A stretch of 64,000 nt of DNA from Pelagomonas calceolata (lineage: Eukaryota > Sar > Pelagophyceae > Pelagomonadales > Pelagomonadaceae), in assembly GCA_918797485.1 (NCBI GenBank), contig CAKKNE010000006.1, positions 372,001-436,000 of the forward strand. Direction: 5' to 3'. Below the pieces are notes generated by a model. That model made no database searches and was not told the origin of the DNA. It was given only the letters and a program-made list of their open reading frames with translations. Below, in pieces: positions 1 through 44,876 of the stretch (position 1 is its first letter; every line of letters starts with the position of its first letter). The position numbers were made by a program, and so were the translations under genes.

Positions 1-1831
1 GACCTAAGTAGAGAACGACGAGTGAGTGAAATTTTCGACTCTCGACGGCCCTCGGCGTCCATAAAATGAAATGCTGACTCTGGCACTCGCCGTAGGCTTC
101 CATAACTCGGGCGACAAGTAGCCGTACGAGGCCGACACCGCGTTGAAAACAGCGGTAATAAAGTTGCCCGTCGTGCGCGAGTGGCCGCGCGTCGTGGAGT
201 AGCAGTCCTGCGTGCAAAGGAGTGAGTTGGCGTTTCGCGTCATGGATGCGGCGGCCGCTAAATAGCTGGCCCGCCCCCGCCGCGACTCGAAGGCCTCATT
301 AGTTGTTGGACGCAGCTGCTGACCTCGAGGCCAGCCATGGCGAGGATCTTCTTAGAGGCCGGGGCGGCGACGAGGCCCGTGCCGCGCGGCGCCGGGATAA
401 GACGCACGCTAACGCTACCACAGGTACCGGAGAGCTTCATGGGGATCGTGTGAGGAAGCCCGGAATTTTTACTGTGTAGATCAACCAGTGAGCGATGCAA
501 CGTTTACAGCCCCGCGGAGACTCTCTCGAAGTGGCAGACGCGTCGATTCTCGTTTTCTGACGCTGTCGCGGACCCCCAGTAGCCGCGGCGGATCGGCACG
601 AGGTGCATCTTGGCCATGATAAGAGCGCCTCTAATGGCCGTAGCGACCTGTGCGCAAATCAATCAGTGAGTCGGGTGCGCGTCGATGGCGTGGAGGTCAT
701 AATTCAGCAGTGGACGTGCCGCGACAATTTGATTTAAGCGCAGGTAGCGACCTCCGAGGAGCACTTCTTGCCGAGGCCGATGTGGCCGTCGAAGTCGCCG
801 ACGGCGACGTAGGCCTCTGCGTGGAGTAAAAACGGTGAGTTTCGGCGAAGGCTGACGTTTACGTCAACATCGACGTTGAAGGCGAGGACGCTGGCAAATA
901 CTGAATCTAGTTCTCTGGCCAGCCGACGACTGCTTCTGAACGGGCTTGATGGTCATCACCTCGTCTTTGAGCTTTCCAGCGGTCGGCGGGAAGAAGTGGT
1001 CCACCTGCGAGAGGAATACGAGCGGTGACCGCGCGCTTAGCTGGGGCTGGGGGGCGGTTAAACCGTCTACGCAAAGGTGCGTCGACGTTGCGTAGATCGA
1101 AGGCGCCTATCTCGGCGCCGAGACGGCACAATCTGGTGCTCCTTGATCGGCATCGAGTGAAGGAAGATTTCCTGTGCGAAAAAACGGGTCGCGAAAACGC
1201 TCCGCGACGCCTAGACTCTCTCATGATCACGAAGACGGCGTCGAGGCGACGTGGTCTCGTGAAGACGCCATCGCCGCGCCGCCCCGGCGAGTTAAAAATT
1301 CATTTTCTGCTCCGGTGCTGACCTCGAGCGAGCGGATTCTGCCCTCCTTCACGAGGCGGCCGAGCTTGGTGACGGGGATCTGTGTGGAAATCAACCGGTT
1401 AGCGTCACGTCATTTTGGCGTGGCGGTCTACGCGTCTATTCAGAAGGCGCGATGAAAAGATTATCCGCACTGCGTTTTGCCCATTCGTCCTTATCGTCGC
1501 CCCCGCGCCTGAGTATATCGACCAGTGAGTTCGCTGCGCCATTGTGTCGATGTCGGCGAAAAAACGCAACCGTATCTGGAAAAACGCGGCCGTTTCTGGG
1601 AAAACGCAGCCACTTGGATACTTTTCGACGCAGCGGTGGTATAGCTTGCTCGATAAGGCGCTCTGCGCCCACTGGAAGCATTGTAGTGAAGGCACCTTCG
1701 ATTTAAGCACTGCGGATTTACCCTCTGCCACGTCCGCGGCCGCGGCCGCGGCCCCGGCCGTCGCGGCCGCGGCCGAAGCCGCCGCGCCCGCCGCGCCCTT
1801 CGCCTCTACCTTCTCCAGGAGGTCCGCCCAT
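1..1831 (-). CDS. RPS2: 40S ribosomal protein S2 (uS5), intron-dense, 3' end beyond the window edge
   Basis: Small-subunit ribosomal protein lining the mRNA entry region. It is not open as one frame; I assembled it from exons on the minus strand: 1722-1831, 1481-1508, 1323-1379, 1130-1171, 902-1004, 752-816, 574-647, 324-471 and about 87-207, with a further exon beginning at position 3. Exon phases agree throughout. The product has an RGG-rich N-terminus, then the uS5 landmarks [78 protein letters not shown] and [14 protein letters not shown], matching eukaryotic S2 closely. Exon 2 ends in TGG followed by GC, so intron 2 looks GC-AG. Most 3' splice sites read like CTCAC, about 16 nt, AG, the same sequence as the introner end, so the introns appear introner-derived. 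The 5' boundary of the last intron is uncertain. Start chosen at the ATG that opens the RGG region. Confidence 0.93.
472..573 (-). mobile_element. Degraded introner forming RPS2 intron 7
   Basis: On the minus strand the intron starts GTCCGCGA and ends CTCACTGGTTGATCTACACAG, a close variant of the introner end with a CTNAC branch-point-like motif about 18 nt before the AG. No 8-bp duplication is recognisable, so the copy is older than the one at 648-743. Confidence 0.6.
648..743 (-). mobile_element. Introner in RPS2 intron 6 with perfect 8-bp duplication
   Basis: A 96-bp element flanked by GTAGCGAC on the plus strand at 640-647 and 744-751, an exact 8-bp target duplication. In the gene direction this reads GTCGCTAC, so the duplicated host copy gives the 5' GT and the element end GATTTGCGCACAG gives the 3' AG. 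Splicing out 648-751 leaves the codons for SSEVATAIRG intact. Termini are CTGCGCTTAAATCAAA and TTGATTTGCGCACAG, a variant of the main family. It carries the internal GCGTCGATGGCGTGG signature seen in other copies. Confidence 0.88.
1380..1480 (-). mobile_element. Introner-derived RPS2 intron 2, apparent GC-AG
   Basis: The 3' end in gene direction is GCTAACCGGTTGATTTCCACACAG split as GCTAACCGG and TTGATTTCCACACAG, matching the family end and holding a CTAAC branch-point-like motif. The exon before it ends GAATGG followed by GCAAAAC, so the only frame-consistent donor is GC. Flanking 8-mers no longer match. Confidence 0.6.
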
Positions 1832-2410
1832 GCTGCTGTATGATATCTGGCCTGCGGGGACGATCGGTTAGCGCCGCGTCATCTCGTATTGCTCTCTTTG
1901 CGGCGACGGCGCTCTCTCGCGTGCAGACTGTGCTGCAGCAGTCACGGGTGACGTCTCGTAAGCTCTGCCGAGCCGGCGCAGCGTCGACGGCGTCAACGAG
2001 CGCCGCGAGGCTGCTGGCGACGCAATGTCGTAATAGCAGCCTAGGAGCTCGCCGCGCGCCGCGTCTTTTGCAACACGGCTCGGCTGGCTCAAACGCAGCC
2101 CTCTCGCGAGCTCTTGCTGCAGGAATACGTAGCTGGACGCTGTAGCGGACGTCTAATGCCAATCTCTATCACTGAAAGGCGATTTTGTGCGGGTTCCGCG
2201 ATATGCGAGAAGCACGAAAAGCACGCATTGGCACGCCATATAGGACCTCCCGTACGCGTCCGAGGCAAAAAACGCGACGCGCTTCCAGCTAGCTCGAGGC
2301 CCACAAAAATTGGAGTTCACATAAGACATCAAACGCCGCCCATTCGGCGCCACCGATGCGCATGGGTCGCGCAGCCTAGGCGCAGCGAGCGCACCGCAGG
2401 GGCAGCAACC
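1832..2410. promoter_or_regulatory. Divergent intergenic region between RPS2 and the glycosyltransferase
   Basis: About 580 bp separate the two start codons. Several open frames cross it on both strands but none has recognisable protein character. I treat it as a bidirectional promoter plus 5' leaders. A GGCAGCAACC context precedes the chosen downstream ATG. Confidence 0.5.
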
Positions 2411-4144
2411 ATGCGCATCCTCCTTGCGCTGGTCCCGTGCGCACTGGGAGAAATTGCCCTCTCCAACGAGTGGCGCAGGCAGCACTGCGTCGGCGACATG
2501 CGCACCCGAAGTTTGGTGGTAGCGACGGCGACGGACTCGCCCAATTTACTCCCTATCCTGGCGGTCATCAACTCGACGCTCACGCACGCCGTTGACGGCG
2601 ACGTTTCTCACGTCGTCATCACGCGGCACGTCCGACGCCTGCACGCGGCGGTCGCCAAGTTCACGCCGACGGCGCAGGTGACGATCTGCGGCGGTTTTTC
2701 CGATTTATTGACCCAAAGGCCACCTCTCGACAAATTGCAAAGGTTGGCAGATACTCAGAGGGTTAGAAGGAAGGAATTACTATCACCGTTCAACTTCGCG
2801 GCGTTCTACTTACCGTACGTGCTGCGAGAAGCCTCTCGCGTGTTGTACTTGGATACCGATGCGGTCGTGGAAGCGGACGTAACTATGTTACGCTCATTGG
2901 ACATGGGCGGAGCGCCCGCCGCGGCGGTGGAGGACTGCACGCAGAAGGTGCATAAGTACGTGAACTACGAGCTGCTCGAGGAGAAGGACCACCACAAGCT
3001 GGGCGGGGAAAAGCACTGGTCTCGGTTCGGGTTGAGCGATGCCGCGTACTCCAACGAGACTTGCGTGTTCAACCGAGGTGTCGTTTTGTTCGATTCGGCG
3101 CGATGGAGGGAATTACGCTTGACGGAGACCATCGAGGATCTGGTTGACGCGTTTGTGAGTACAAGGGCGAAGTTATGGAGAGGAGGGATCTCGCAGCCTC
3201 CGTTCTTGTTGACGCTGGCCGGAAGATACTTAAAGTTAGGCGTGGAGTGGAACGTGCGCGGTTTGGGAAGGTTGGAGCTGGGTAGAGCCGAGTGGATGTT
3301 ATTAGCGCAAGGCGCTCAGGAAAGATACGGCACGCCGGGCCTCGACGCCCACACGGCCCCCGCGGGGCCCTTCCGCCACACGTTCAACCCCTACGTGTCG
3401 CCCTTCGCGGCGCACGCGAAGATTTTGCACTTCAACGGCGACGTGAGAGCGCGGCGTCCCGTGTGAAGCTTCGACGTGATAGTACGCTGTCGCGGCGATG
3501 GCGTCGCGGCGGGCGTACAGCTATTCCCGTCGACTCATCGATCGAAGGACGCCCCGTGAAGACACGTGATGCTTCGTGAGACGAACATAGCTTCGCGTCG
3601 ACGGCGCAGGGAGGGGTCTCACACACAGGTCAAGCCCTGGATGCTCTCCAAACAGGACGCAGAAAACTGGCGGCGATTAGGTATTGAGGTGTCCACCACG
3701 GAAGACACGACACGCCACATCACCGGCGTCTGCAAACTCGCGGCCTGCCCGACGGCCGTCAACGTGACGACTGGGAGACGCCTACGGTCCAAGTGCGAGA
3801 CCTGGACGTCGTCCGAGGACGTCGATGGGCGGGTCCGCTACGACCAGCAGCGTAGAAGCTTGAGCGGCGAGCGCTGGACGGCGAAGACTCTAAAAACCTT
3901 CGGGGCCTACTACGGCCACGCCTGCGTCGCGCGGGCGCCCCTCTGCACGTGCCGCTCGGACATGTCCGACGACTGCGTCACCTCGTGCGCGGCGCTCTGG
4001 CACCGCTACGTCTCGGAAGAGTTGTCCCAGAGCTTCGCGGCGTCCGACGTCGCCTGGGCCAACGACTCGATCGCGTCGACGCCGCACCACCTTAGGGCGC
4101 TGTCGGATTCGCGGCGGCTTACAGAAGTACAATGGTGGCTCTGA
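2411..4144 (+). CDS. Family 8 glycosyltransferase, secretory, one intron
   Basis: Predicted retaining glycosyltransferase of the secretory pathway. Exon 1 is 2411-3442 and exon 2 is 3629-4144, joined in phase 0 (GAC before GTGAGA, CACACAG before GTC), giving 515 residues. The ATG at 2411 starts a signal-like leader, MRILLALVPCALG. Visible GT8 features are the metal-binding DxD in RVLYLDTDAVVEAD, the acceptor-side segment ETCVFNRGVVLFDS, and HFNG followed, across the intron, by VKPW, the classic HxxGxxKPW end of the domain. That the motif is completed only by splicing supports the intron. The C-terminal exon adds about 170 residues with many cysteines (PLCTCRSD, DDCVTSC) and is otherwise unrecognised. 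The frame is open upstream of 2411 but without domain content. Substrate cannot be told. Confidence 0.88.
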
Positions 4145-4239
4145 CGACGCCGTGCTCGTGGGGCAGTGTCCTACTACGCCGTCGCCGCGACCCGGGAACG
4201 CACCATCAGACGCGATAGTTATTAATCACAATGTTGTTA

Positions 4240-6732: not shown

Positions 6733-8808
6733 TCAGGGCTCATCGGCGGCAAGCTCTTCACCACTGATGAAGTGCGCGAAGGTCAGCTCGTGGGGCTCGT
6801 AGAAGTTCGACTTGACGGCGTCGTAGACGTCGAGCTCCGTGAGCTCCTTGGGCGGGATGGACTGGCCCCAGAACTTGCGCATGTAGTGGGCCGACGCGTT
6901 CTTCGCTTCTTGGTTGCTCTGGTCGAAGAAGGCCGAGGCATTATAACGCATGACGCAGAAGGGCGACACGCCCGTCGACAGGCCGACGTCCATGCCCGCG
7001 AGGCCCTGGGCGTTCGTGAAGAAGGGCATGGGCGACTCCTCCATGCGCTTCCGCGCGAGACCTTCCAAGCCGGCGGCCATGCCGACCTCGCCCCAGCCTG
7101 TGTTGATCGTCGCGTCGATGGCGTTTGGGCGGGTCTCTCTCGCGGCCGCGGCGACGGCGTCGCAACGGCGCGGCGATGGCGTGGGGGTCGTAGCGTCGCC
7201 GGAAGTACAAAAGGACGCCGCGAAACAAACCGGCCCACTGCATCGCCGTGCAGGGCAGGCCCTTGGCGTTGCGGTAGCGCGACAGCGAGTCCAGCAAACT
7301 ATTGGCGGCACTATACGGAGACTGGCCAGGATTGCCATAAGTAGCGACACTAGAAAAGAGCCACAGGAACTCGAGCTTGTCGCAGTTAAACTTCTCGAGG
7401 GCGTGATTCAAATATAAAGCCGCCCAGGCCTGTGTGGAAATCAAATTTCGGGCGCCCCACGCCATCGACGCGACGTTGTCGCCGTGCCCGCGTCGGTTCG
7501 ATGCAACCTAACTCACTGGTTGATTTCCACACACAGGCAAGGGCCTTGGGCTTGAAGACGGCGTCGTACTTTTCGGCATCTTGATTCATCAATAACGCGT
7601 CTCTCAGTATTCCCGCCGAGTGCACGAAACCAACTAGACGATCCGCATGTTCCGACACGAACGCCTCGACGGCCTCGCGACTAGACACGTCGCACTTCTC
7701 CTGGGTGACCTTGATCGAACCTTCTGCAGCTAAGCGTTGCACGTCGTCCCACAGCTGTTGTTGCGCCGGCTGGATCTTGCAGGACCGCGACAGGAACTTG
7801 ATCTCCAACGAAGCCGTCTTTCGTTGATCGCCCAACCTTTCTAGGAGGTACTTGCCCATCACTAAACCTAAAGCACCGTTCCCGCCTCCGATGCCCACGA
7901 CACCGGTAGAAGGCGGCTGGAAGATTTTGGAAGAGGTGTATCGAGGTTCAGCTAACACCATCCTCGCGACGAACCTTCCTCTCCAATTCAACCGCACGGA
8001 ATTCTCGCCGAAACCGGCTTTCCTAGAAACCTCATACCCGATCTGCTCCACTAAGTCATCGTCCACTTTATATTCGCAGTCCACGTAATGAATCGGTGTG
8101 GACGGTAACTCTAATCTGCAAGTATTGCACATGCCGAATAAGTGGGAGGCTGCTACTAAGCCAACTCCAGCTTCATTCCAGGTCTTACTTTCGTTCGAAT
8201 GCGTGTCGGTCGTCAACACAAATAACTTCTTCGCATAGCTTGGTTTGCGTTGGATGATTTGTACTAGTGTGAGGAATACTTTAATGAGTCGGTCGGACCA
8301 CTTGACCACATCGTCCGGATCATTACTTTCCGGCGAGTCCGCGCCAGCCCCGAACACGACCACGTCCCATGAATCAGCTAGTAACTCTTCGACCTTCTCC
8401 GCATCCAACAAGTCGTCATTACCGTAGACGTTGACGACTTTTTTGGCGCCGACATGTCTGTGCTGTTGGAGCGAGTCGAGGACCGAGGTCGTTAATCCCG
8501 ATTCGTCGGCAAAGGCCAGAATATCTAATTTGCCCGTTTCGGAAGGATCTTCCTTGGGGACCGCATCGATAATGGCCTTCGGGAGCGTGGGACCGGCCTT
8601 GCGGATCGTATCCCTTATAGCTTTTTCAGTAGGGGGTAGCGGCTGCTCGACCCACTCTACTAGACAACAAAACTTGCCGTCGACCTCGCTTATAATTTCG
8701 GGCTTGCGCTTCGCGTAGAGGGCGTCGTCCCAGGCCTGCGTTGTGTGGTGTCGTGGTGCGGCGTTTTTTGTGCGGACGCCGGCTCCGCGCGGCAAAGACT
8801 TCGGACAT
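6733..8808 (-). CDS. Stand-alone polyketide-synthase-type ketoreductase
   Basis: Predicted NADPH-dependent ketoreductase of the modular polyketide or fatty-acid synthase kind. Exons on the minus strand: main exon ending at 7533, 7231-7429, and 6733-7097. The second junction restores AMQWAG + WGEVGMAA, a conserved KR tail. Visible parts are an N-terminal pseudo-Rossmann half (DILAFADESGLTT, HYVDCEYKVDDDL, NSVRLNWRGRFVARM), the cofactor glycine motif GVVGIGGGNGALGLVMGKYL, VGFVHSAGILRDALL, and the catalytic-type FLWLFSSVATYGNPGQSPYS followed by a YSAANS tyrosine. No ketosynthase, acyltransferase or carrier domain lies in this gene. The start is unsettled: ATG TCC GAA at 8800-8808 joined to GCCTGGGAC across a short intron is my best fit. 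The open frame continues to 9083 as arginine-rich sequence that I doubt is coding. Confidence 0.8.
7430..7532 (-). mobile_element. Introner in the ketoreductase gene
   Basis: A 103-bp intron. In gene direction it begins GTGTGGAAATCAACCAGTG and ends AAATTTGATTTCCACACAG, the two family ends. It includes CCACGCCATCGACGCG on the plus strand. Orientation is opposite to the RPS2 copies, since the CCAGTGAGT end is 5'. The flanks GCCTGTGT and GCCTGGGC match at 6 of 8 positions, so the exact duplication and donor are less clean than in the other copies. Confidence 0.7.
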
Positions 8809-13698: not shown

Positions 13699-15039
13699 CT
13701 ACACGACGGAGAAGCGCCGCCGCGCCCGGCGAAACACGTGCGCGATGGAGTCGTGCTCGACGCTCACGACGCGGCTCGCCGCGCGCCGCGCGCTCGCCCG
13801 CCGCATCCGCGAGCGCACGACCTGCACGGCCCGGAAGCCGCACTGCGCCAACCTCAGCCAGCGGACGCAGCGCAACGCGACCAACAGACGAATCAGCCGC
13901 AGGATCCGCGCGATGAGCGTCGGCAGGTCGGGCAGCCAACTGGCCAAATAAGCGTCCACAACGCCGCCGATGCGTGGGGCCGCCTCGCGGAGCCGTCTCT
14001 TCAGGTCGAATGCCTTCAAAATCCGTCGCGCGATCTGGAGGGGTCCCGGCGGTGGGGGCTTGCACTGCGCCCACCTGTGTGGAAATCAACCAGTGTGTCG
14101 GACGAACGCGCCGTAAAATGTTGATTTCCACACAGGCGCCCACCACGTGTCGTAGGAGCCGACGGCGCACCTCCTCGGTGCCGGCACCGCCGCCAGCGCG
14201 CTCGGGCCCAGCGCGCCCAGGACGTCCGGCAGGAGCCAGCCCGCGGCGTAGTGCCTCATAATGCGGCCGCGTCGTAAGATCAAAGTACCTCCTTTATCCA
14301 CATAACCCGTGTGCAGGTTCAGCGCCGCGTCAGCGACGAAGAAGGCCGACCCCATCACATTAACGTTCGGGTTGAGCACCATCGCGACGGCGACGAGCGC
14401 AGCACAAAAATCCCAGAGGCGCCGCGGGCCCGAGTTCGGATGAATCACGCCCGCGTCGCGGCTCGTCTGGCGCATGAACGTGACCCGTTCTCGTAGCGGG
14501 AGGGCCCGCGACGCGCGCTCCGCGCCATCCGCGAGCGCGTCGAGCGACCGCCGCGAGGTGCGTCGTCGTAATGGCGGCTCGGAGAGGGGCGCGTGCGTCG
14601 GCGGCGACTTGATTGTCGGTGTGGCGGGCAGGGACCGCGGTGAGACCGGCGGTACCGTCGCTGCTGATGGTGACGTCGGCGGCGATGCGGGATTCGCGTC
14701 GAACGTCTTCTCGGCGGACCCGAGGGCCTTGCGGCGGCGGCGTTTCCGCCGCGCTCGCACCGTTACATTGGGTGAGGGCGTGCAGACGTCGTCGTCGGCG
14801 TCCAGCAGGGACTGGTGCGGTCGCAGTGGTGACTGGCGCTGCCGCGGCGGCGTCCTTGCGACGGCGGTCGGCGCTGCCGCGGCGCATGCCTGCTTCTTGG
14901 CCTCCCCGATCTCAGCGCAGTTCTCCGCGCGCGACGGGCCCAGGGGCGCGCGCGGCGCAGGAGCCGGCTGTGGCAGCTCTTCGCAACTGGCGCGCATCTT
15001 CACCACCCCAGCGGTTTGGCTTAAACACAGCCCGGGCAA
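13699..15039 (-). CDS. Voltage-sensor-like channel relative lacking a pore, one introner intron
   Basis: Exon 1 is 14144-15039 and exon 2 is 13699-14074 on the minus strand; splicing at GT of the duplicated GTGGGCGC and the element's CACACAG joins them in phase (TW + WAQCKPP) and gives about 423 residues. The N-terminal half is disordered and basic. From about residue 205 the sequence resembles S1-S4 of EAG/CNG-type channels: RRLWDFCAALVAVAMVL, then AFFVADAALNLHTGYVDKGG, LILRRGRIMRHYAAGWLLPD, and in exon 2 an S4-like arginine ladder, IARILRLIRLLVALRCVRWL. The protein stops about 50 residues later with a basic tail, so no S5, pore loop, S6 or nucleotide-binding domain is present. It could be a voltage-sensor-domain protein or a truncated channel; another downstream exon was not found before the TauE/SafE gene. 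Confidence 0.65.
14075..14135 (-). mobile_element. Minimal 61-bp introner with perfect 8-bp duplication
   Basis: The cleanest copy. Ends are exact 16-bp inverted repeats, CTGTGTGGAAATCAAC and GTTGATTTCCACACAG on the gene strand, with only 29 bp between them. Flanks at 14067-14074 and 14136-14143 are both GCGCCCAC on the plus strand (GTGGGCGC in the gene direction). Removing 14075-14143 restores the reading frame of the channel-like gene exactly. Confidence 0.92.
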
Positions 15040-15238: not shown

Positions 15239-16099
15239 ATGGCCGAGCGCACGTCGCCCGCGACCCTCCGGTCGCAGCCGGACTACGAGGCGTCTCCCAC
15301 ATATCTGACGTCGGCGCTCCCGCCCCGCGAGGGCCAACGACCGCGGACGGAGTCGTGCCTGCCCCACGCGCAAATGGAAGCCGAGAGCCCGGACGCAATT
15401 TTCGAGGCGCTCACCGCGGCAGCTTCCGCGAGCCTGGGCGATGGCGTGGTGGAGGGCCCTACGACGGTGTCGGTGCCATCCACGTGGCCAGCGTACCACC
15501 TTTGCAGGCCGTGCGGCGACGCCATGCCGCGCGAGGCGTGCATGACGCCGGGCGGCCCGGCCTGTGGTCTTGAGCTGTGTGGAAATCAACCAGTGCGTCG
15601 GGTGCACCGACAATTCTTCACTAAGTCATTTCCCGGCGATGATGCTGCCGTGCTGGCTCCATGGAGCGGCGAGGAACCGGCATCGCCACGCCATCGAGCA
15701 GGCGTCGCGTCGATGGCGTGGGGGACGACGCGACGATTCAGCACGAACGCGCCGTGAAATTTTGATTTCCACATAGGTCTAGAGTTTGCCCACGTGCACG
15801 CCCGATATATCCCGGGCGACCATCCGACCGCGGTCCAGGCCAAAGCCCGAGGTCTGCCATGGCAGGCGTACCAGGGCGGCGGTCAGGGCTCGATGCACCT
15901 GTGCCTCACCCTGCGAGACGCGGCGGCCGTCCTGGACGCGGGCTGGGGCGAGCTGCACCTGCTCGCCGGAAGGACCATGGGGCCGGGCGCAAAGGTGCCG
16001 CGCGGACTCGTACTCGTCTATGCGCCGCGCACGGCCGAGGAGGTCTCGACGGTGGTGCGGATCCTGGGGGCGTCGCATGCGTTTGCCCGATCGGCGTGA
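15239..16099 (+). CDS. Luciferase-domain-like (DUF5519-type) small protein, one introner intron
   Basis: Exon 1 is 15239-15566 and exon 2 is 15777-16099. Splicing at the GT of GTCTTGAG and the element's CACATAG joins TGT G + GT CTA to give ACGLEFAHVHARYIPGDHP, 216 residues in all. The N-terminal half is unremarkable, with CRPCGD and MPREACMTPGGPACG. The second half reads EFAHVH, GSMHLCLTLRDAAAVLDAGW, GELHLLAGR, VPRGLVLVYAPRTAEEVST and VVRILGASHAF, which resembles the small domain called luciferase (PF17648/DUF5519) in fungi and bacteria; despite the name, light emission is not implied. Function is unknown. A C-terminal continuation past the stop at 16099 was not found. Confidence 0.65.
15575..15776 (+). 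mobile_element. 202-bp introner in the luciferase-like gene
   Basis: Starts CTGTGTGGAAATCAACCAG and ends TTTTGATTTCCACATAG. Flanks are GTCTTGAG (15567-15574) and GTCTAGAG (15777-15784), 7 of 8 identical and starting with GT. Internal GCGTCGATGGCGTGG and the ACGAACGCGCCGTGAAAT end are shared with other copies. The CCAGTG end is 5', so this copy is spliced in the orientation opposite to the RPS2 and channel copies. Confidence 0.85.
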
Positions 16100-16119: not shown

Positions 16120-19100
16120 TTATCCAACTAACTGGATTGGCCCCTCAAACGTACTGGAGCTCTGCGTAAGATAAATCTCGTCCTTCACGGCCGGCGCCGG
16201 CGCCGGCGCCGGCACGGCGGCGTAGAGCGCCGGCGCCGGCGCCTCGACGAGCGGCGCGGGCACCGGCGCCTCGGCCACGTGGATGCGGTCCACCGAGAGC
16301 GTCGAGCCAGGCGGCGGCGCCGCCGCGTCGACGTAGGCCACGGCCTCGCGCACGGGCGTCAACGTCGCGCTCGGCGAGCGCAGCGTCGTCTCTTCGAGTA
16401 GCTCGGTGATGTGGTCCAAGCGCTGTCTCATGGATTGTTGGCTGCGACTGAGCCGTATCTTCAGCGACGATTCGCGGCGTAGCAGCTCCTTCACGTCGGC
16501 GCGGAGCTCTATGTGGAACTCTCGTAGTTCCGCGGCGAACTCCTTGTCTGGGATATGCGCACCGACGGTCTCGACCGCCGCCGCATCCTTGGACAGCGCC
16601 TCGACGGCCGTCGCTTTGGACTCGCCGGTCGTCTGCACCTGTGTGGAAATCAAATTTACGGCGCATTCGTCCTGAATCGCCGCGTCGACCTCCACGCCAT
16701 CGACGCGACGCCTGCTCGATAGCGTGGTGGTGTCGATTCCTCACCGCTCGACGGAGCCAGCGCGGCCACGTCGTCGCCGAGAAATGACACACTGGTTGAT
16801 ATCCACACAGGTCTGCACTCTCTCGGCCACAAGCCGCTCAATGGCTTGCTCGATCCGGTAAGTTCGCTCGAGGTAAACATTGTCAGTCGCTAGGCGCGAC
16901 GCGTCGCGAAACATCTCGAGCTGAAGCTTGATGTCGCGGTCCAGCTCAGACAACGAATCGACGTGCGACCTAATCGTCCACATGCGCTTGAACCATCCCC
17001 GCTCGCCGAAGGCCCGCACGGCGGCGTGGAATTGACGCAGTAGCTCCAGCAGTTGCCGCATCCGCGCCTCCACGATCTCCTTGCCTTCTACCAGCGACTC
17101 CGCGTTCTTATTCATCAGCGTCACCAGCTCGAGCACCTCCACGACGCGCCGCGCCGCGGTGACGACGTCGTCCGCCTTGTCCGCAAATTCGCTGGCGGAG
17201 CCGAAGAACTCGTTCGCGACCTCGGCGATGTCTCCCACAAACGGCACGAGAGAGCCCGCCGTGAGCAATGTGTTCACCAGAGACATGCCCGACGCCACGA
17301 CCTGGGCGACGTCTTGGTGCTGCTCCAACGCTGCCTCGTTCGCCATCTCCGTCGCTGTGAGCGCCGCGGCGGCACCGGCCTCCGCGGGCGCGACCTTCGT
17401 GCCCTTGTCCTTCCGCGGGGACGCCCGCACGAAGCCGATGCACGCGCTGACGCCCGCGAAGGCGAACACGATGACGACGACGACGATGATAATGATGGTA
17501 ACATTGCTGTCCTCACCGCCGCCGCCGCCGCCGCCTGAGCCCCCGGGACTTGTTGTTGGAGCTGAGGTCGGCTCCGGCGTCCTTGCAACTTCCATGCACA
17601 CGGCTTCGACGGTCATTCCGGCAAAAACGACCTGATTACCCGTTTCTGCGGCTTCCTTATGCATGGCCCTTTCAATCTCGCCGGCCCCCACTGGAATAAA
17701 TGACACGGCGTTCGCTGCGTGCTCCACCGATTCGTAGCGAATCCAGTAGGGGACGTATACGACGTCACCACTCTGAAGACGTCTTTGCCCCGTACCGTTA
17801 CGGCATACGTCATCACTCTGGAGACGTCTTCGGCCAGATGAAAACGTCACGGTGACCCGGTCGGGGTGGACGCCGTAGACGCTGGCGATTGCCGCCACGA
17901 AGACGTCCGCGAGCGCCTCCGCGTCCGCCAGCGAGATGCCCGCGCACGTCAGCGAGCCCTCGAGGAGGCCGTCGGCGGCCGCGGTTAGCGCGCCCGGCGT
18001 CGGTGGGCGCGTACTGGGCGCGGGCGTCGGCCACAAAGTAGGTAGAGGTGTCGGTTGGGGTGATGGGCGCGTGCTGGGCGCAGGCGTCGGCCGGAAAGTA
18101 GGCATAGGTGTCGGAACCGGAGTCGGGCGGAAAGTAGGGCGAGGCGTCGGGCCGGGCGTAGGACTTGGCGTCGGGCGTGCAGTCGGCGCGCAGCCGCCCG
18201 CCACTTGCGTGACGCCGCACGACGTCGACGCGCACGGAGAGTCAACGAACGCGTTGTTCAGGTTCACGCCGTCGTCCACGCACCAGCCGAGGTCCTGGTT
18301 AAAGGCGAAGGCCTCGGCGAACATGAGCTCCATGCTCGTGACGCTGTGGACCGCCCATCCACTGATGTCCTGGTCGAAGGCGTCGGCTTGGTAGAACACC
18401 CCGTACATATCAGTGACGCCGTCAACCGCCCAAAAACCGATGTCCTGGTTAAAGACCGAGGCGCGGGCGAACATAATGCGCATGCTCGTGACGCCTGAGG
18501 TGTCCCAATCACCGAGGTCCTGGTCGAAGGCCGAGGCGGAAAAGAACATCCCGTGCATGCTTGTCACGCTGTGGACCGCCCAATTACCGACGTCTTGGTT
18601 AAAGGCCGAGGCTTCGTAGAACATGGACCTCGTGCTCATGACGTTGTCGACCGCCCAATCACTGAGGTCCTGGTCGAAGGCTGAGGCGCGGGCGAACATG
18701 CACCTCATGCTCGTTATGCTGTCGACTGCCCAACCGCCGATCGGCCGGTTGAACGCCGAGGCGCCTTGAAACATGTTTTGCATGGTTGTGACGCCGGATG
18801 TATCCCACGCGCCGATGTCGTCGTTAAAGGACGCCGCGGCCGTGTTGTAGTACGAGCACTCAGCACCATCGCTGCAAAACAACTCCGACATGTCCGTCAC
18901 CCCGCCAGTCGCCCACGTCGAGATGTGGCCGTATGTCGTCTCTGCGGATGCGCTGTCCGAGAGCCACGCAGCGACGGCTGTTCTAATGTTGCTGTCGGTC
19001 ATGACGTACCCGAGCTTGCGCCGCGTCATGGACGCGTTTGCAGTTCCGAAGGGCCGGGCCGCCGCCGCGAGCTGCGGAAAGGCCAGCAGCACGCCGAGGA

Positions 19101-28670: not shown

Positions 28671-29023
28671 CGATTGGTCTTGCTAGGCAACCGCTACGCG
28701 CGACGTATTCACAGTGTGATCTCGCTGCTGCAGGAGAGCGGCAAGTCAATTTGTGATAGTGCTCCGCTGCGCCGTGATCTATCGCACGCGGTGGTTGCAA
28801 GAGACGTAACGCACTGCTTGGAAGCCATAAACGCTGCGCCGCCGTCCCGCGCACAAAGCTAACCACAGCACTGCTGCCTGCACAGTGTGCTGCCAGTCAC
28901 CTCCGCGAACGACGCGTTGTGCGGAAAGAGCTGCTGTGCTGGCGCTCTACGAACCGTGCGGAGCGGTGCGGAGATCAACCGCTGCACGCCATCGACGCGA
29001 AGTTGTGAGACGACCGAGACGGC
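28671..29023. promoter_or_regulatory. Divergent promoter region between the nucleotidase fusion and the SENP8-like gene
   Basis: About 350 bp. Near 28965-29005 the sequence GGAGATCAACCGCTGC then ACGCCATCGACGCG resembles an introner end plus its internal signature, so a relic or a 5' leader intron may lie just upstream of the SENP8-like ATG. Confidence 0.4.
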
Positions 29024-34825: not shown

Positions 34826-35766
34826 ATGAAGCTCCTCCTCACGCTCGCCTCGGCCGCCGCGCTGTCGGCGCCGACGCGCCTGCCCGCCCGAGCCAGCGCA
34901 TGAATCAAACTGTGTCGCGGCGCGTCTCCGCTCGTAGCCTCCACGCCATCGACGCGACGTGATTGATGCGCGCGCAGGCCCTGGCCGCCGACAAGCAGCT
35001 CAAAACGATCTTCGAGAACAACCGGAGGTGGGTCCGCGAGGAAGTCAAGAAGGACAAGGACTACTTTAATCGGATGGCCTCCGGGCAGTCGCCGCAAATC
35101 CTGTGGATCGGCTGCTCCGATTCACGAGTCCCTGCCAATCGTATTATGGGTTTAGATGCGGGAGAAGTCTTCGTGGCGCGAAATGTCGCCAACCAGGTCA
35201 TCGGCACGGACATGTCCATGATGTCCGTCATCCAGTACGCCGTGAACGTGCTGAAAGTACCTCATATCGTCATCTGTGGCCACTACGATTGTGGAGGTGT
35301 GAAAGCTTCCATGGAAAACGTCGACCACGTCCCACCTTTGGAGAATTGGCTGCGGAACATCCGCGATACGTATCGGTTGAATCGCCAGGAGCTGGACCGC
35401 ATCTCCGACAAGGACCAGCGGACGCGTCGCTTGGTCGAGTTGAACACCTTAGAACAGGCCTTCGCCGTTTTTAAAACTGGAGTCGTCCAGAGGAGGCGGG
35501 TCCAGACCTACGGTTCTGATCAAGAGCCCTACACGCAGCCGCGGATCCACGCCGTCGTGTTTGATCCCGGGACTGGCGAACTGAAGGAACTGAACGTCAA
35601 CTGGAAGCAGGAGCTCGACAAATTGGGGCCGATCTACAATTTGTATGCCCCGGAGACGGCGGAAGCTAGAGCGGAGCGGCTCGGCGACGGCGGTGCTGCG
35701 GCGGCCGCGCCGCCTCCTGTGGAGCCTGCGAAGAAGAAGGGCCTCTGGGGGCGTCTTCGAGGGTGA
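34826..35766 (+). CDS. Beta carbonic anhydrase with signal peptide, one introner intron
   Basis: Interconverts CO2 and bicarbonate. Exon 1 (34826-34885) encodes only a signal-like leader, MKLLLTLASAAALSAPTRLP; exon 2 (34978-35766) encodes the enzyme, 282 residues in total. Zinc ligands and catalytic pair are visible: ILWIGCSDSRVPANRI (Cys, Asp-Arg) and IVICGHYDCGGVKA (His, Cys). MGLDAGEVFVARNVANQV and TDMSMMSVIQYAVNVLKVPH are family landmarks. The C-terminal tail is Ala/Pro rich and ends KKKGLWGRLRG. The leader implies entry to the secretory route or plastid, consistent with a carbon-concentrating role (inference). The intron donor appears to be GC (GCCCGAGC) rather than GT. An in-frame TTG or ATG inside the intron would give a leaderless protein and is less likely. 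Confidence 0.88.
34894..34977 (+). mobile_element. 84-bp introner in carbonic anhydrase, GC-AG
   Basis: Ends are CAGCGCATGAATCAAACTG and GTGATTGATGCGCGCGCAG, the CTGCGC-type variant of the family end. Flanks GCCCGAGC (34886-34893) and GCCCTGGC (34978-34985) match at 6 of 8. Internal CCACGCCATCGACGCGACG is the family signature. The only frame-preserving donor is the GC that starts the left flank. Confidence 0.72.
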
Positions 35767-36318: not shown

Positions 36319-36350
36319 CTGCGCGATGAGTATGCTTGATTTCCACACAG
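36319..36350. mobile_element. 32-bp introner-like junction sequence
   Basis: Reads CTGCGCGATGAGTATG then CTTGATTTCCACACAG, that is a CTG...CAG unit with one well-preserved family end. It separates two diverging TPR remnants. Its flanks are not duplicated. Confidence 0.5.
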
Positions 36351-38425: not shown

Positions 38426-40843
38426 ATGCGAGCACATCTCGTGCGGCGCCTGGTCCACGCCCGACGCGGGCAGCATCTGAACCGCTCCGCACTGGCAGCC
38501 ATGCCTTCCTCTGCTTCGGCCTGGCACGTGGCGACGCCATGGGTGAACGCGCGAGCTCCACTCGCCACCAACCTCGCAGCGGCGGCGTCTTGTCGACGGG
38601 CGTTCAGCACCGACATAGATGCGCGCATCGCCGCCGAGAACAAGTCCCTCCAGGCGCGAGATATGGAAAAGAGCGACCCCGATGGCGCAATGGCGCTCTA
38701 TCGTGAAGTGCTAAAGGACTACGCTAAGCTCAGGGATGCATACGTGGGCCTCGGCGACTATGCCAACGCGAGAGACGTCCTGGAGCGTGCTGTCGCGATC
38801 GAGGAGCGGGCGTACGGCCGCGACCACCCGACAGTGGCCCTCACGCTGACAACCCTCGGGTGCGCGTACGTCGACTCAGGCGACCACGCCAAGGCGCGAG
38901 AGGTCATGGTTCGCGCGCTCGCAATCTTTGAGCGGGAGTTCGGCCGCGATAGCACGTTTGTGGCCACCACGCTGACGAACCTCGGGATCGCGTACGGCTA
39001 CTTAGGCGACCAGGCGAAGAAAAGAGACATGCTGGAGCGCGCGCTGCCGATCCAGGAGCGGGAGTACGGCCGCGACAGCACGCAAGTGGCCACCACGCTG
39101 ACGAACCTCGGGAACGCGCACAGCCAATTAGGCGACCACGCGAAGGCACAACACATGCTGGAGCGCGCGCTTGCGATCTTTGAGCGGGAGTACGGCCGCA
39201 ACCACACGAATGTGGCCCGGGCGCTGAATGGCCTCGGGTGCATGTACGGCGCTTTAGGCGACCACGCCAAGGCGCGAGAGGTCCTGGTTCGCGCGCTCGC
39301 GATCGACGAGCAAGCGCACGGGCCCGATCATCCCAGCACGAAGCAGACCAAGGAGAATCTCGCCAACGTGCAAGCCGACTTAGAGTTCCCGCTGCGCGCT
39401 GCGGCAAAGAGAGGCGACGTCGACGCTATGACTCAGCTCCTGGACGAAGGCGCCAAGGTCAATGTGACGATTCAGAACGGCCAGACGCCGCTCTATATCG
39501 CGTGCGAGCAGGGCCAGATCGACGCGGCGCGGCTGTTGTTAGATAAAGGCGCGGAAATAGACCGCGCGAACGAGCAGGGCGCGACGCCGCTGCTCGTCAC
39601 GTGCGCTTACGGCCACGTCGATGCGGCGCGGCTGTTGCTGGAGAAAGGCGCAGAGGTCGATCGGGCGGACAAGAACGGGCAGACGCCGCTGTACCTCGCC
39701 TGCGCTCTCGGCCACGTCGACGTGGCGCGGATATTGCTGGAAAAGGGTGCCGACGTTGATCGGGCGACGGAGAACGGAGCGACGCCGCTGCTCGTCGCCT
39801 GCCATCAGGACCACGTCGACGCGGCGCGGCTGTTGCTGGAGAAAGGCGCAGAGGTCGATCGGGCGGACAAGAACGGGCAGACGCCGCTGTACATTGCCTG
39901 CCAGAAGGGCCACGTCGACGCAGCGCGGTTGTTGTTAGATAAAGGCGCGGCGGCCGATCGGGCGAATAAGAACGGTGTGACGCCGCTATGGACCGCCTGC
40001 TACTGTGGCCAAGTCGACGCGGTGCGGCTGTTGCTAGATAAAGGCGCGGCGGTCGATCGGGCGTCTGAGGACCGTGGGACGCCGCTGCACGTCGCCTGCC
40101 ATCAGGGCCACGTCGACGTGGCGCGGCTGCTGCTGGACAAGGGCACGGAGGTCAATCGGGTGGGCAAGGACGGTGCGACTCCGCTGTACCTCGCCTGCCA
40201 GAACGGCCATGTCGACGCGGTGCGACTATTGCTGGAGAAAGGCGCGGAGGTCGACCGGGCGGAGAAGCAAGGTGCGACGCCGCTGTTCATCACCTGCCAG
40301 CAGGGCCAGGTCGATGCGGCGCGGTTATTGCTGGACAACGACGCGGAGGTCGATCGGGCGGCGGAGGACGGCCGGACGCCGCTATGGACCGCCTGCTACG
40401 AGGGCCACGTCGACGCTGCGCGGCTGCTGCTGGACAACGGCGCGGCGGTCGATCGGGCGCAAAAGCAGGGCGCGACGCCGCTGCTCGTCGCGTGCTACAA
40501 CGGCCACGTCGACGCGGCGCGGCTGTTGCTAGATAAAGGCGCGGATATCAATCGGGCGACGGAGGACGGTGCGACGCCGCTGTCCATCGCTTGCCAGAAC
40601 GGCCACGTCGACGTGGCGCGTATGTTGCTAGACAAGGGCACGGAGGTCAATCGGGTGGGCAAGGACGGTGCGACTCCGCTGTACCTCGCCTGCCAGAACG
40701 GCCATGTCGACGCGGTGCGACTATTGCTGGAGAAAGGCGCGGAGGTCGATCGGGCGAGGGAGGACGGAGCGACGCCGCTGTCCATCGCGAAAAGCAAAGG
40801 CCACTCGTCCATCGTCGCGCTCCTCGGGGAGCATCAGAAGTGA
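38426..40843 (+). CDS. TPR and ankyrin repeat protein, possibly mitochondrial
   Basis: 805 residues. The N-terminus is arginine-rich and ends SCRRAFSTDIDAR, which resembles a mitochondrial presequence with an R-x-F/S cleavage region (inference). Residues of about 85-315 are five or six 42-residue kinesin-light-chain-type TPRs (ALAIFEREYGRNHTNVARAL, GDHAKAREVLVRALAIDEQA). From about 320 to the end come 15 ankyrin repeats, each 33 residues and exactly 99 bp, of the form DGATPLYLACQNGHVDAVRL with LLEKGAEVDRA. Repeats 8-9 and 13-14 share a 119-bp identical block, so the array has expanded or been homogenised recently. It is a scaffold protein; partners unknown. Confidence 0.85.
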   Translation: MRAHLVRRLVHARRGQHLNRSALAAMPSSASAWHVATPWVNARAPLATNLAAAASCRRAFSTDIDARIAAENKSLQARDMEKSDPDGAMALYREVLKDYAKLRDAYVGLGDYANARDVLERAVAIEERAYGRDHPTVALTLTTLGCAYVDSGDHAKAREVMVRALAIFEREFGRDSTFVATTLTNLGIAYGYLGDQAKKRDMLERALPIQEREYGRDSTQVATTLTNLGNAHSQLGDHAKAQHMLERALAIFEREYGRNHTNVARALNGLGCMYGALGDHAKAREVLVRALAIDEQAHGPDHPSTKQTKENLANVQADLEFPLRAAAKRGDVDAMTQLLDEGAKVNVTIQNGQTPLYIACEQGQIDAARLLLDKGAEIDRANEQGATPLLVTCAYGHVDAARLLLEKGAEVDRADKNGQTPLYLACALGHVDVARILLEKGADVDRATENGATPLLVACHQDHVDAARLLLEKGAEVDRADKNGQTPLYIACQKGHVDAARLLLDKGAAADRANKNGVTPLWTACYCGQVDAVRLLLDKGAAVDRASEDRGTPLHVACHQGHVDVARLLLDKGTEVNRVGKDGATPLYLACQNGHVDAVRLLLEKGAEVDRAEKQGATPLFITCQQGQVDAARLLLDNDAEVDRAAEDGRTPLWTACYEGHVDAARLLLDNGAAVDRAQKQGATPLLVACYNGHVDAARLLLDKGADINRATEDGATPLSIACQNGHVDVARMLLDKGTEVNRVGKDGATPLYLACQNGHVDAVRLLLEKGAEVDRAREDGATPLSIAKSKGHSSIVALLGEHQK
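40136..40254 (+). repeat. 119-bp exact duplicate within the ankyrin array, copy 1
   Basis: Identical to 40631-40749, offset 495 bp, which is exactly five 99-bp ankyrin units. It covers the parts of repeats 8 and 9 that encode DKGTEVNRVGKDG to GAEVDR. Confidence 0.9.
40631..40749 (+). repeat. 119-bp exact duplicate within the ankyrin array, copy 2
   Basis: Second copy of 40136-40254, in repeats 13 and 14. Flanking repeats differ at silent and replacement sites, so the identity is local. Confidence 0.9.
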
Positions 40844-40990
40844 CTACACGCGGACGAACCTCGGGCCCAATCATCTTAACACGGAAAAGACCAACACAGA
40901 ACCTACTTACCAACTGGCTCCTGAACACGACGGCCGACGAGAGTTTTCTACCTCCCTTTTAGGCCACTTAATTTCATCTAGTTCTATGTA

Positions 40991-42127
40991 CTACTTACCC
41001 GCCGACGACGCGTTGAGCGCCGCCAGCCTGGCCAGCGCCGTCCGAAAACACCCGAGGTTGTAGTCGATCAGGTCCCGCTTCTCGAGGTTCTCCGTCCTGA
41101 GTAAGCAAACTAACGCCAAATTGCGATCAACTTCATCCAAGACCAGAGCCATGCCGTTCGACAGCTGGATCGACGCGGCATTGGACCGCGTTTGCTTCGG
41201 CTCCTCCTCTCGGACAGGCGTATCCTCTTCAGAGGGTTCCGGCTGTTGGGTTTTATCAGGGGCATATATGGACGCGACGTCGAGCACGACGTCGATGGCG
41301 TCGGCGCACAGCTCGTACGAGGCCGAGTCCACAGGGGCACTATCCGTGGCCACATAAACTTTGGACGCCACGTCAAACAGGAACGACTTCTCCATGTCGC
41401 AGGCCGTCACGAGCGCGTCGAGCATCTTTCTCAATACAATTCTCTGGGGCACTAATGCCCTCGACACAAGCTTGGAAAACGCCTCAAAAACAGAATGGTC
41501 ATATATAGACGTGAGAGAAAAAGCAGCGCCCGCCAGACAGTCGTCCGCATACGCCTGGGCCTGCTGGGGGTCGACGGTTTCGTCACTGCCATGGGCATAC
41601 AACTCCGCAAGTTCCGCGCGCGCGCACGCTTCCACCTCCCGCCGACAATCCAACTTCTGCTCCTCGCTCAGGAAGTGGTCGCCATCCACCTTGTGGACGA
41701 AGACCTCGAGTTGCACCCTGGGATTAGCTGCTTTGGCCGCAGCAGCGACCTCCGCTAGTCGAGCACATTCGGAGTACGGGTCCGCCTCGGCGTCGACCAC
41801 GTACGCCAAGACGACGCACCGCCCGAACAAGTCGCGCGGCGTCATCTGCGCGTCGCGCCACCGCAATTCGCTCAAGTCCCTATCTCCCGGAACGTCGAAA
41901 ATGCTGAAATGTACTAAATCGCTGTTGGCCACCAATCGTAAAGTGGGCTGCGCCGTCGACGGGACGAAGAGCGTCTCGTGGGGGCTCATCTTGCCGAAGA
42001 CGACGCGCGCCATGGACGTTTTACCCGAGCGGCGCGAGCCCATGAGCACGATGCGCGGGGCGCGCTCGGCCCGTTCGTTGTCGCCCTCGGAAGGTGTCGC
42101 CGGCCAGCGCTCGAGGTTGGCGTACAT
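40991..42127 (-). CDS. RagC/RagD-type GTPase (Gtr2)
   Basis: 378 residues. Heterodimeric Rag GTPase subunit that recruits TORC1 to the lysosome or vacuole in response to amino acids. The P-loop is IVLMGSRRSGKTSMARVVFG, followed by KMSPHETLFVPSTAQPTLRL, a switch-II region FSIFDVPGDRDLSEL (the RagC-type DxPG), and HKVDGDHFLSEEQKLDCRRE, the RagC-specific replacement of NKxD by HKVD. The C-terminal half has the roadblock-like dimerisation fold (FLFDVASKVYVATDS, MALVLDEVDRNLALVCLL). Length and motifs favour RagC/D over RagA/B. Diverges from the TBC gene across about 390 bp. Confidence 0.92.
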   Translation of the reverse strand: MYANLERWPATPSEGDNERAERAPRIVLMGSRRSGKTSMARVVFGKMSPHETLFVPSTAQPTLRLVANSDLVHFSIFDVPGDRDLSELRWRDAQMTPRDLFGRCVVLAYVVDAEADPYSECARLAEVAAAAKAANPRVQLEVFVHKVDGDHFLSEEQKLDCRREVEACARAELAELYAHGSDETVDPQQAQAYADDCLAGAAFSLTSIYDHSVFEAFSKLVSRALVPQRIVLRKMLDALVTACDMEKSFLFDVASKVYVATDSAPVDSASYELCADAIDVVLDVASIYAPDKTQQPEPSEEDTPVREEEPKQTRSNAASIQLSNGMALVLDEVDRNLALVCLLRTENLEKRDLIDYNLGCFRTALARLAALNASSAGK

Positions 42128-42290
42128 GTTTTTGTGTGGTGCTGCTGGTTTGAGTGCCCACGGTGCGCGGCGACGGCGCGCGATGCTCCAGCGAATTAGG
42201 CTCGACGGTAGGCTGCCAGAGGCTTGTCTACGCGTGCAGAGCTGTGCAGGAACGCTTGCGGCGGCGTGTCTTTTGTGTTTTTGCCTGCTG

Positions 42291-42314
42291 GCTAGTGTGT
42301 TACATGCCGCTAGC
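42291..42314 (+). promoter_or_regulatory. 24-bp GCTAGTGT...CGCTAGC motif, copy c
   Basis: Reads GCTAGTGTGTTACATG then CCGCTAGC. It is 164 bp from the RagC/D ATG and 206 bp from the divergent TBC ATG. Confidence 0.55.
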
Positions 42315-42519
42315 TGTGGTTTTGCGCGACGCGCGCACGGGACGAAGACCAGCCTTCAGCGCTCTCCGAAGCTCGCGCGGTACTTTATAGATCGCTCGAA
42401 ACGGCCTTGGCCTCGTACGGCTGCGCCAGGCGGAGTCCGGCTGGGTAGCTCTCCCAAGCTCAAAAGTGCCAAAAAACAGCGCGGACAAACGCATAGCTGG
42501 AAAATAGAGCTAAAAAACA

Positions 42520-44876
42520 ATGGCCGATGACGCAGCACCACAAGCGGAAGCGCCAGAACCTACTGCCGAGCCGAACGCGGATGCCGCAAACGAGCCGGCG
42601 CGTGCGATACCGCAGCCGCGCCCGACGGCCTGGGTCACGGGCGGCGGCGCCCTGACCTACGCGCGGCCGGTCCCGGACGTGGACGAGGCCTCCGCGGACG
42701 CCGAGCTACACTCCGCGCGGGCAGCCGCCACGCCGACCGCGGACGACGACGCCGACGACTCGCGGGAGGGACTGGACGACGATGCCACAAGCACGGACAG
42801 CGACACGGACAGCGACGGCGACGAGGCGGCCTGGGCCGCCGCCGATGGGTTAACAGAAGACCACCGCGCGTTGCGGGTCCAGGGCCTCGCGTGGGACGGC
42901 GTTCCACAAAATAGGCGGCGACGCGTCTGGCTGGAGCTCTCCGGAGCTTCAAGGAGGGCGGGCGACCCCACGGTGCCTCCTGACGAGCTGCGGCGGACGA
43001 CGGAGGAGCTTGAGAGTGTCGTAGGGAGTCGCGTCGCCGCAGATGTCAAACTCGACTGTGGACGGGGCGGCGGCCGGACGAATAGTCGAGAGCGCCTTGT
43101 GCTGCGGAGGGTGCTCCTCGCCGTCGCCGCGAAATACCCGGCGACGGGCTACGCCCAAGGGTTAAATGTGGTCGCCCAGACGCTCTTGGAATCTGTTGGT
43201 TGTGAAGAGTCTATCCTCTTCTGGCTCCTCGCGGAATTAGTTGATGGGAGATTAAAAGGATGGTGGGCCGGCGACTTCTCCGTGTCGTTGGGTTCAATAG
43301 CGTCGGCGCTGGGCAAGTGGTCCGCGCTGAACGGCGAGGACGAGTGCCTGCCGTCGTTTGCCACCACCTGGGCGCTGTCCCTCTTCGGCCAGCACGCGGG
43401 GAAGCCGACGCCCAAACCTTTCAGGAGGGCCTGCCTCGACGCGATATTGTGTTCGAACGAGGGCGGCGTGCAAGCCGTCCTCGGGATTGCATTGGCGGCC
43501 GCGGACGTCGTACAAAGGTGTCCCTCAGAAGACATGGTCGGGCGGGGCTTGGCCGTCGCGCGGGCCTTCTCAAATGAAAGACGCCAGGTGCTCCTCGAAG
43601 CGAGTCGCCTCGCGCGGACGGCGCTCGTCGAGGTCGAGCCGAACCAATTGTTGTTTGACGCGCCGTCGGAGTTCTTCTGGTTACATACGGCGCGGCGCGT
43701 CGCCGAGGCGCGACTGGCACCCGTCGAACAAGCTGTTGAGACCGCGGCTCCATCATTATACGCGACGACCGCCTCTGCCAGAAAGGCAGCGGACCGCAGT
43801 CTCGCCCACGACGAGAAGCCGCTGCTGCTGATTCTTGGAGACGCTTCATCAGCGGACGCCTGCGCCTACGTGGCGGCGGAGCTGCTCGGCGTCGACAACG
43901 AGCGATCGCCGCCGGTGGAGGAAACGGACGAGCCAAGCTGTAACCCGGGCGCGGCCCCCGGCAACGTGCGCTACCGCTGGGGCGACGCCGCGATCGACTC
44001 CGTTTCGTCCTTCGGCGTGCCGGTGCGCTCGCGGCCGACGGCCGCGCTCCGGCGCGTCGACGCGGCCGTCGTCGTCGACGCCGAGGTCGCGCAGAAGTTA
44101 CTCGCCGAAGCAGACGGCGTCATCTTCGTGATCGACGCGTCGGCCGAGCTGCCAACGCCTGCGTGGAAACCAACCCGTGATTGTGTGCCGCTGATATTTG
44201 ATTTCCACACAGGTCGACGCCCTGGCGCCGGCAGAGCGCGCCCGTCGAGCGGGCCGCCTTCGCTTCGATGGACGCGGGCGGGCCCCAAGTCCGCGTCGTC
44301 TGCGTGACGACGGGCGCCGGCGACGGCGACGACGAGGTTGCTAACCACTGGAACGCGCGCGGGACCCAGGCCGCCTTCCGCACAGCGGGCACGGCCCTCG
44401 CCGCCGCGGGCGCGCGGACCGCGCGGCCGCTGCCGGCCTTCGGGGTCCTCGGCGTCTCCTCAAAAACGACGCGTGCCGAACTGCGGGCCCTGTCGAAGCT
44501 CGTCGACGGCCTGCCCGCGGCGTGTGCCGAGAAGGCCGTCGCGGCGTTACTGGCGCGCTGCGATTGCGTGAGGGCGGTCGCGACGACGCTCGACGCCCTC
44601 GCCGCGACGCCGCCGTCGCGGCTCTACCGGTGGAGCAGCGCGCTGATCGGGCTCGTGACGCCGGAGACCGTCGCGCCGATCCTAGACGAGGCCTCCGCCT
44701 ACCGCGCGATGCCGGACGACGCCCGGCCGCCGCTCGCCGCGTCGGCGGCGGCGTGGGAGGGCCTGGATGGCACTCGGTTGGCGGCTTGGGCCGACGCTTC
44801 ACCAGCGCGGAAGCGCCTCGACCGGGCCCTCGACGTCGAGGCGCCGGCGATGCTCCGGGCGGCGCAGAAGCGCTGA
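42520..44876 (+). CDS. TBC-domain Rab GTPase-activating protein, one introner intron
   Basis: Exon 1 is 42520-44150 and exon 2 is 44213-44876; joined in phase 2 they give 764 residues. After an acidic, low-complexity N-terminus, a TBC domain spans about 115-370: LRVQGLAWDGVPQNRRRRVW, LVLRRVLLAVAAKYPATGYA, QGLNVVAQTLLESVGCEESI, FWLLAELVDGRLKGWW and TTWALSLFGQH. The catalytic arginine finger IPxxxRxxxW is represented by GVPQNRRRRVW and the Q finger by GYAQGLN. The C-terminal third has a small GTPase-like or adaptin-binding-like segment (KPLLLILGDASSADACAYVA, ADGVIFVIDASAEL) interrupted by the intron, then continues VRVVCVTTGAGDGDDEVANH. That domain is not identified with certainty. The donor is GC. 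Confidence 0.85.
44159..44212 (+). mobile_element. 54-bp introner in the TBC gene, GC-AG
   Basis: Starts CTGCGTGGAAACCAACCCG and ends GATATTTGATTTCCACACAG. Flanks GCCAACGC (44151-44158) and GTCGACGC (44213-44220) match at 6 of 8; the ancestral target GTCGACGC began with GT, and the 5' copy now begins GC. Frame-perfect splicing requires that GC as donor, giving AEL + STPWRR. The whole intron is 62 bp. Confidence 0.82.

Follow-up and report, generated by a model that had tools for sequence, protein, structure and literature searches.

Elements at the locus and their family

The stretch of the Pelagomonas calceolata genome analysed here is 64,000 bp long (C6:372001-436000, referred to as the window) and carries six short elements with CTGTGTGGAAATCAAC-type inverted ends, each located between flanking 8-bp duplications. 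We interpret these elements as copies of a non-autonomous inverted-repeat DNA transposon, an introner resembling a miniature inverted-repeat transposable element (MITE), that makes spliceosomal introns when inserted into an exon, and we assign this reading a probability of about 0.93. Element E1 (648-743, minus strand) lies in the gene for uS5 (RPS2); its predicted intron spans 648-751, and the retained copy of the duplication at 640-647, GTCGCTAC in gene direction, matches the other copy at 8/8 positions. E3 (7430-7536, minus) interrupts a gene with a KR (ketoreductase) domain. Its predicted intron is 7430-7544, and its duplication copies (7537-7544 and 7422-7429) match at 5/8. E4 (14075-14135, minus; predicted intron 14075-14143) and E6 (16639-16810, minus; predicted intron 16639-16818) are flanked by the 8/8 duplications GTGGGCGC and GTGCAGAC, respectively. 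E5 (15575-15776, plus; predicted intron 15567-15776) has a 7/8 duplication. E8 (44159-44212, plus; predicted intron 44151-44212) is found in a TBC-domain gene, and its two copies, GCCAACGC upstream and GTCGACGC downstream, match at 6/8. Read along the gene, the upstream copy begins with GT at E1, E4, E5, and E6 and with GC at E3 and E8, and AG is the terminal dinucleotide of all six elements. A preliminary description of the window had reported these six elements, GT at the start of four duplications, and AG at every element end, all of which we found again; its duplication matches also hold at five elements, whereas that of E3 had been given as 6/8.

The family was then traced through the genome (32,445,274 bases, 8 contigs). 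The exact end CTGTGTGGAAATCAA occurs 790 times in forward and 772 times in reverse orientation, 1,562 in total, and the reversed control occurs 0 + 0 times, which shows that the window elements are not a chance resemblance. With at most two mismatches allowed, the 16-base end has 1,426 + 1,415 matches versus 4 + 2 for its control. We surveyed the window, twenty 10-kb stretches, and forty 1.3-kb stretches, the stretches being picked for holding exact ends, so that the sample is anchored on those. Ends were paired if their flanking duplication matched at no fewer than five of eight positions, and 17 ends (at most one mismatch) with no partner at this threshold, including those of E3, were dropped. 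The remainder form 77 paired elements, 42 of them with an 8/8 duplication. The search for flanked ends that had been suggested as a check, run here genome-wide for the ends and on the sampled stretches for the duplications, bears out the family. Terminal inverted repeats and a target duplication are therefore both present. Three pairs with good ends (L015:3836-4005, L026:3239-3407, and L055:601-743) have unlike flanks that both start with GT, as would be expected if two introners had recombined and the intervening exon had been lost. At L028:9210-9346, the flanking 8-mers TCCTTCGC and GCGAAGGA are reverse complements of each other rather than direct repeats.

The commonest element length is 203 bp (10/77), to which E5 with its 202 bp is close. 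The two inner ends differ, with CAACCAGTG... at one and CAAAATTTTACGG... at the other, and hence the orientation of an element can be read. Both ends of an element carry TTGATTTCCACACAG, the consensus at the acceptor end whichever way the element lies. This stretch combines TTGAT, which is branch-point-like, with a short run of pyrimidines and AG. TTGAT fits the branch-point consensus yUnAy and may serve as the branch point. Coding strands were called from the joined flanks, blind to the duplication, by a codon model trained on long open reading frames; 63 of the 77 elements were classed as coding, 12 as weak, and two as none, while 2,353 of 4,000 random positions fell into the coding class. 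As both ends carry TTGATTTCCACACAG, both orientations occur, and relative to the gene the coding-class copies divide into 33 and 30. A variant inner end of the GTGCATAAATC or GTGCGCAAATC type was seen at L018:2620-2739, L018:3270-3469, and window 648-743, and these elements are possibly an older or separate subfamily. The motif CACGCCATCGACGCGA (window 7453-7479, 16688-16714, 28980-29006, and 34937-34963) was found inside introners and also at sites without recognisable ends, the latter possibly being decayed introner copies.

The start of the target duplication

On the sense strand, the duplication of the 63 coding-class copies starts with GT in 46 and GC in 17, and with nothing else, and all 63 elements end with AG. 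Among random coding 8-mers drawn from the window and the 10-kb stretches, 406 of 2,353 (17%) have GT or GC at the start. One splice site would thus come from the duplication and the other from the element, and the earlier proposal of GT as the donor start is refined to GT or GC. The 12 weak-call elements start with GT (6), GC (4), TG (1), and TT (1), and the two without a call with GT and GC. E1, although located in the uS5 gene, is one of these two, and hence the classifier misses short exons; at L012:2992 the strand was called two ways, giving a GC start on one reading and a GT start on the other.

The rule extends to the whole genome. Only 31 of the 1,562 exact ends have neither G at -8 nor C at -1, compared with 631 of 1,562 when the same letters are sought at -16 and -9. 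The 31 exceptions include duplicated regions (two identical-flank pairs on C3 and C6, one tandem pair on C2) and the end at position 1380 of the window, and one of five that we inspected (L072-L076), L072, looks like a donor copy shifted by one base. The first two positions of the duplication also vary less than the rest: the copies differ at positions 1-2 in 2/126 comparisons and at positions 3-8 in 42/378 (Fisher p 4e-4). At the outermost dinucleotide of the element, among non-anchor ends, 0/39 acceptor-side ends and 7/41 donor-side ends are altered (p 0.012).

The GT/GC rule could in principle stem mainly from target choice by the transposase, the elements still being spliced, rather than from loss of unspliceable insertions. 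The antisense side of the duplication is raised too, starting with GT or GC in 23/63 elements versus 421/2,353 random 8-mers, and the rule holds at most of the 1,562 ends, some of which are perhaps not genic. However, target choice by a symmetric synapse should affect both sides equally, and the observed fractions are 63/63 for sense and 23/63 for antisense, which makes this explanation unlikely. The purging of insertions with unspliceable targets would most simply account for their lack in the sample, and the raised antisense fraction suggests a weak target preference beneath a strong sense GT/GC filter.

Junctions in conserved proteins and their relatives

Retention of the element in the transcript would cause a frameshift or introduce a stop in 53/63 cases, and in 52/63 no stop interrupts the joined frame over the 240 bp on either side of the junction. 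Restoration of the frame is nearly automatic for any precise insertion with a target duplication, and we therefore tested the junction on conserved proteins and on relatives. Besides E1 and E5, five genes were chosen by eye for recognisable domains from the 30 printed of 58 spliced models and from the window. Their Pfam bit scores were compared between a splice that adds nothing and one that adds 12 nt, i.e. four residues, as a donor inside the terminal repeat would. The former scored higher in 6/6 informative pairs, namely cobW/UreG (125.3 vs 116.7), FKBP (94.4 vs 91.0), aldehyde dehydrogenase (234.8 vs 227.9), a TYW1-type protein (66.2 vs 58.1), the KR domain at E3 (126.1 vs 117.5), and Ribosomal_S5 at E1 (51.6 vs 42.5). 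The domain at E5 starts past the junction, so its scores (53.9 vs 53.0) are uninformative. The KR match at E3 reaches profile position 115 of 180 unspliced and 176 spliced, and UreG, FKBP, and uS5 align to solved structures without a gap at the junction, in the two best chains listed for each.

These scores bear on the possibility that the donor lies within the terminal repeat (CTGT, then GTGGAAATC), so that splicing adds 12 nt, eight from the duplication and four from the element, as the legend of Fig. 2F in PMC9860276 gives for an Aureococcus family. A GT is indeed available there, 52/63 elements beginning with CTGTGTGG, and 12 nt would preserve the frame. An internal donor nonetheless predicts no GT/GC rule at the duplication start, where 63/63 copies follow it; the four added residues lower every informative Pfam score, and relatives at E4, E6, and E8 lack a four-residue difference. 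We regard it as very improbable.

Those relatives are environmental protein records, of which 10/12 matches were aligned at E4 (not P0016 and P0017), 4/7 at E6 (not P0022-P0024), and 5/5 at E8. At E4 the site is uninterrupted in P0006, P0007, P0008, P0011, P0012, and P0013; P0009 and P0010 enter the element (APVWKST..., with RHTG at the end) and match the filled frame of the window, and P0014 and P0015 diverge before the site. At E6 the site is uninterrupted in P0018-P0021. At E8 it is uninterrupted in P0001 (78-79% identical), and P0002-P0005 enter the element and end with STPAWKPTRD..., where the filled frame of the window reads TPAWKPTRDC. The records do not state whether they derive from DNA or transcripts, so an uninterrupted protein points to an unoccupied site in the first case and to splicing in the second, and both alike support the junction. 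P0007, uninterrupted at E4, has at another site a 27-residue insert resembling a translated introner, which speaks for this record being DNA. Proteins that appear to lack the insert, which had been named as a further check, are thus available at E4, E6, and E8.

The E8 records also give a view of the two duplication copies. With the downstream copy retained, the modelled mRNA encodes AELSTPW, in line with PLSTPW in P0001 and ELSTP in P0002-P0005, while the upstream copy would read LPTP. Protein constraint thus appears to have preserved the downstream copy while the upstream one drifted. In P0002-P0005 the upstream copy still encodes LSTP; judging from the protein, the E8 donor was therefore probably once GT and became GC in the P. 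calceolata genome.

That the environmental gene calls at E4 and E8 stop within the element would also be expected if the elements were ordinary MITEs that are not spliced and damage their host genes. Yet the hosts include the uS5, UreG, and FKBP genes, which otherwise read as conserved, and damage by unspliced insertions leaves unexplained both the strand-specific GT/GC rule and the lost variation at the splice dinucleotides; we consider it just as improbable as an internal donor. Spread of introns by reverse splicing of RNA instead of DNA transposition would give many similar introns across unrelated genes, but it leaves the inverted ends and the donor-containing 8-bp duplication unexplained. 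Reverse splicing would also yield sense-strand copies only, whereas the orientations are 33 and 30, so that we give it almost no weight.

Several observations weigh against the introner reading. Some element pairs have no matching duplication, and four of the five inspected rule-breaking ends have no recognisable one. If retained, 10/63 elements would keep the frame open, and in 11/63 the joined frame has one to three stops within 240 bp of the junction. The comparison of acceptor-side and donor-side ends over 15 bases is not significant (p 0.11). Set against these, similar copies are present in large number in unrelated genes, where the restored proteins mark them as probable introns, and the sequence evidence points to splicing from the duplicated GT or GC to the AG of the element. 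The central claim of the preliminary description, that the duplication supplies the donor and the inverted repeat the acceptor, is favoured by the 63/63 rule, the whole-genome count, the restored domains, and the uninterrupted relatives. Its statement that such splicing restores the frame of all six host genes is supported for E1, E3, E4, E6, and E8 by conserved proteins and relatives, and E5 is uninformative.

Proposed mechanism, search for the mobiliser, and known introners

In the mechanism we propose, a transposase encoded elsewhere would act on the inverted ends, and insertion into an exon would duplicate 8 bp. The upstream copy of the duplication would become the 5' splice site, with GT, or GC in about a quarter of cases, and the terminal repeat TTGATTTCCACACAG would become the 3' splice site. 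With TTGATTTCCACACAG at both ends, splicing would be possible in whichever orientation the element lands. Removal of the element together with one duplication copy would leave the ancestral coding sequence, and insertions lacking a GT or GC target start on the sense strand would be unspliceable and lost. More speculatively, the terminal repeat may have been shaped by transposase binding and the spliceosome alike, with a transposase that mildly prefers GT/GC targets on either strand; the transposon would then have been selected to be spliced either way, rather than being a MITE that splices by chance. We hold this extension to be possible but doubtful.

We then looked for the mobiliser. Whole-genome family searches (KDZ, hAT dimerisation, MULE, P element, IS1595, DDE_Tnp_4, and DUF659) and a search with the hAT protein yielded no transposase gene bearing introner ends. 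The genome has 0 matches to PF18758, PF10551, PF21787, PF12762, and PF13359 (KDZ, MULE, P element, IS1595/Merlin, and Harbinger-like DDE_Tnp_4, respectively), and control genomes are equally silent for PF18758 and PF21787. The only gene with PF05699 (hAT dimerisation) resides in a hAT element, 3,651 bp long and complete in appearance (L030:4549-8199, i.e. C4:4499549-4503199), which has perfect 20-base inverted ends CAGGGCAGCAGAAGGGCAAG, an 8/8 duplication TTGCTCGC, and one open frame of 721 amino acids, and no second copy of its protein was found in the genome. Its ends are unlike those of the introners. A DUF659 (hAT-like) match at C5:1222172-1222657 (minus; E 3.5e-5, below the curated cut-off) lies in an open frame of 832 amino acids, the flanks of which were not read. 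P elements or hAT had been suspected from the look of the ends, and neither was established. As for viral carriers, the 21-base end has 0 matches in IMG/VR; the 16-base end has 12, and 0/12 of these stretches hold a partner end with at most three mismatches.

Elsewhere in the window, two single ends had been omitted from the earlier list of elements. The exact end at 1380-1395 (minus) is the apparent acceptor of another intron in the host gene of E1, and no partner end with a matching duplication was found for it. Over 1380-1720 (minus), it seems to provide the acceptor for intron 1 of the uS5 gene, with the donor (G then GTAAATC) located ca. 325 bp upstream, and no second introner end was recognised. 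The exon following this end was assigned by eye, and we take it to belong to uS5. The right-type, acceptor-like end at 36335-36350 (plus) likewise had no partner that we could find. Three arrays of direct repeats at 18279-18793, 38726-39355, and 39413-40801 have periods of 75, 126, and 99 bp, respectively, all multiples of three, and probably encode protein repeats.

The origin of new introns is a long-standing question, to which introners are a leading answer. The present family allows the mechanism to be tested site by site, through the one-sided GT/GC filter in 63 genic copies and through sites that are filled or uninterrupted among relatives. E8 illustrates the aftermath of an insertion, with a constrained exonic copy and a drifting donor copy, apparently from GT to GC. 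As P. calceolata is an abundant open-ocean alga, public metagenomes could yield many dated intron gains.

Aureococcus anophagefferens, another pelagophyte, has introner elements reportedly described by Huff, Zilberman and Roy in 2016, a study cited in PMC9481584 and PMC7789003. That transposons make introns was known, as the preliminary description had said, and this kind of introner is not new; the present member is detailed here beyond what our literature search showed, in which only PMC9481584 names both 'Pelagomonas calceolata' and 'introner'. The 8-bp duplication of the family is a feature of the hAT type and is shared with hAT transposons. The one complete-looking hAT element of the genome has different ends, and the searches revealed no hAT gene flanked by introner ends. 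In some known introners, such as those of Symbiodinium, the element brings the 3' splice site and the duplication the 5' site (PMC9860276, Fig. 2B legend). The P. calceolata family resembles them in its inverted ends and in the same division of splice sites between duplication and element, but differs in the length of the duplication, which is 4 bp there (PMC9860276) and 8 bp here. According to PMC7789003, direct repeats, terminal inverted repeats, and canonical splice motifs are features of the introners of A. anophagefferens; all of these recur here, a likeness drawn from description and not from end sequences. The published assembly of P. calceolata RCC100 comprises six nuclear contigs of 32.4 Mb plus plastid and mitochondrial circles, and its introns show a length peak near 210 bp that is called characteristic of the introners described in A. 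anophagefferens (PMC9481584). The main text of that paper gives the length only; since 203 bp and 8 bp make 211 bp, this peak is very probably the present family.

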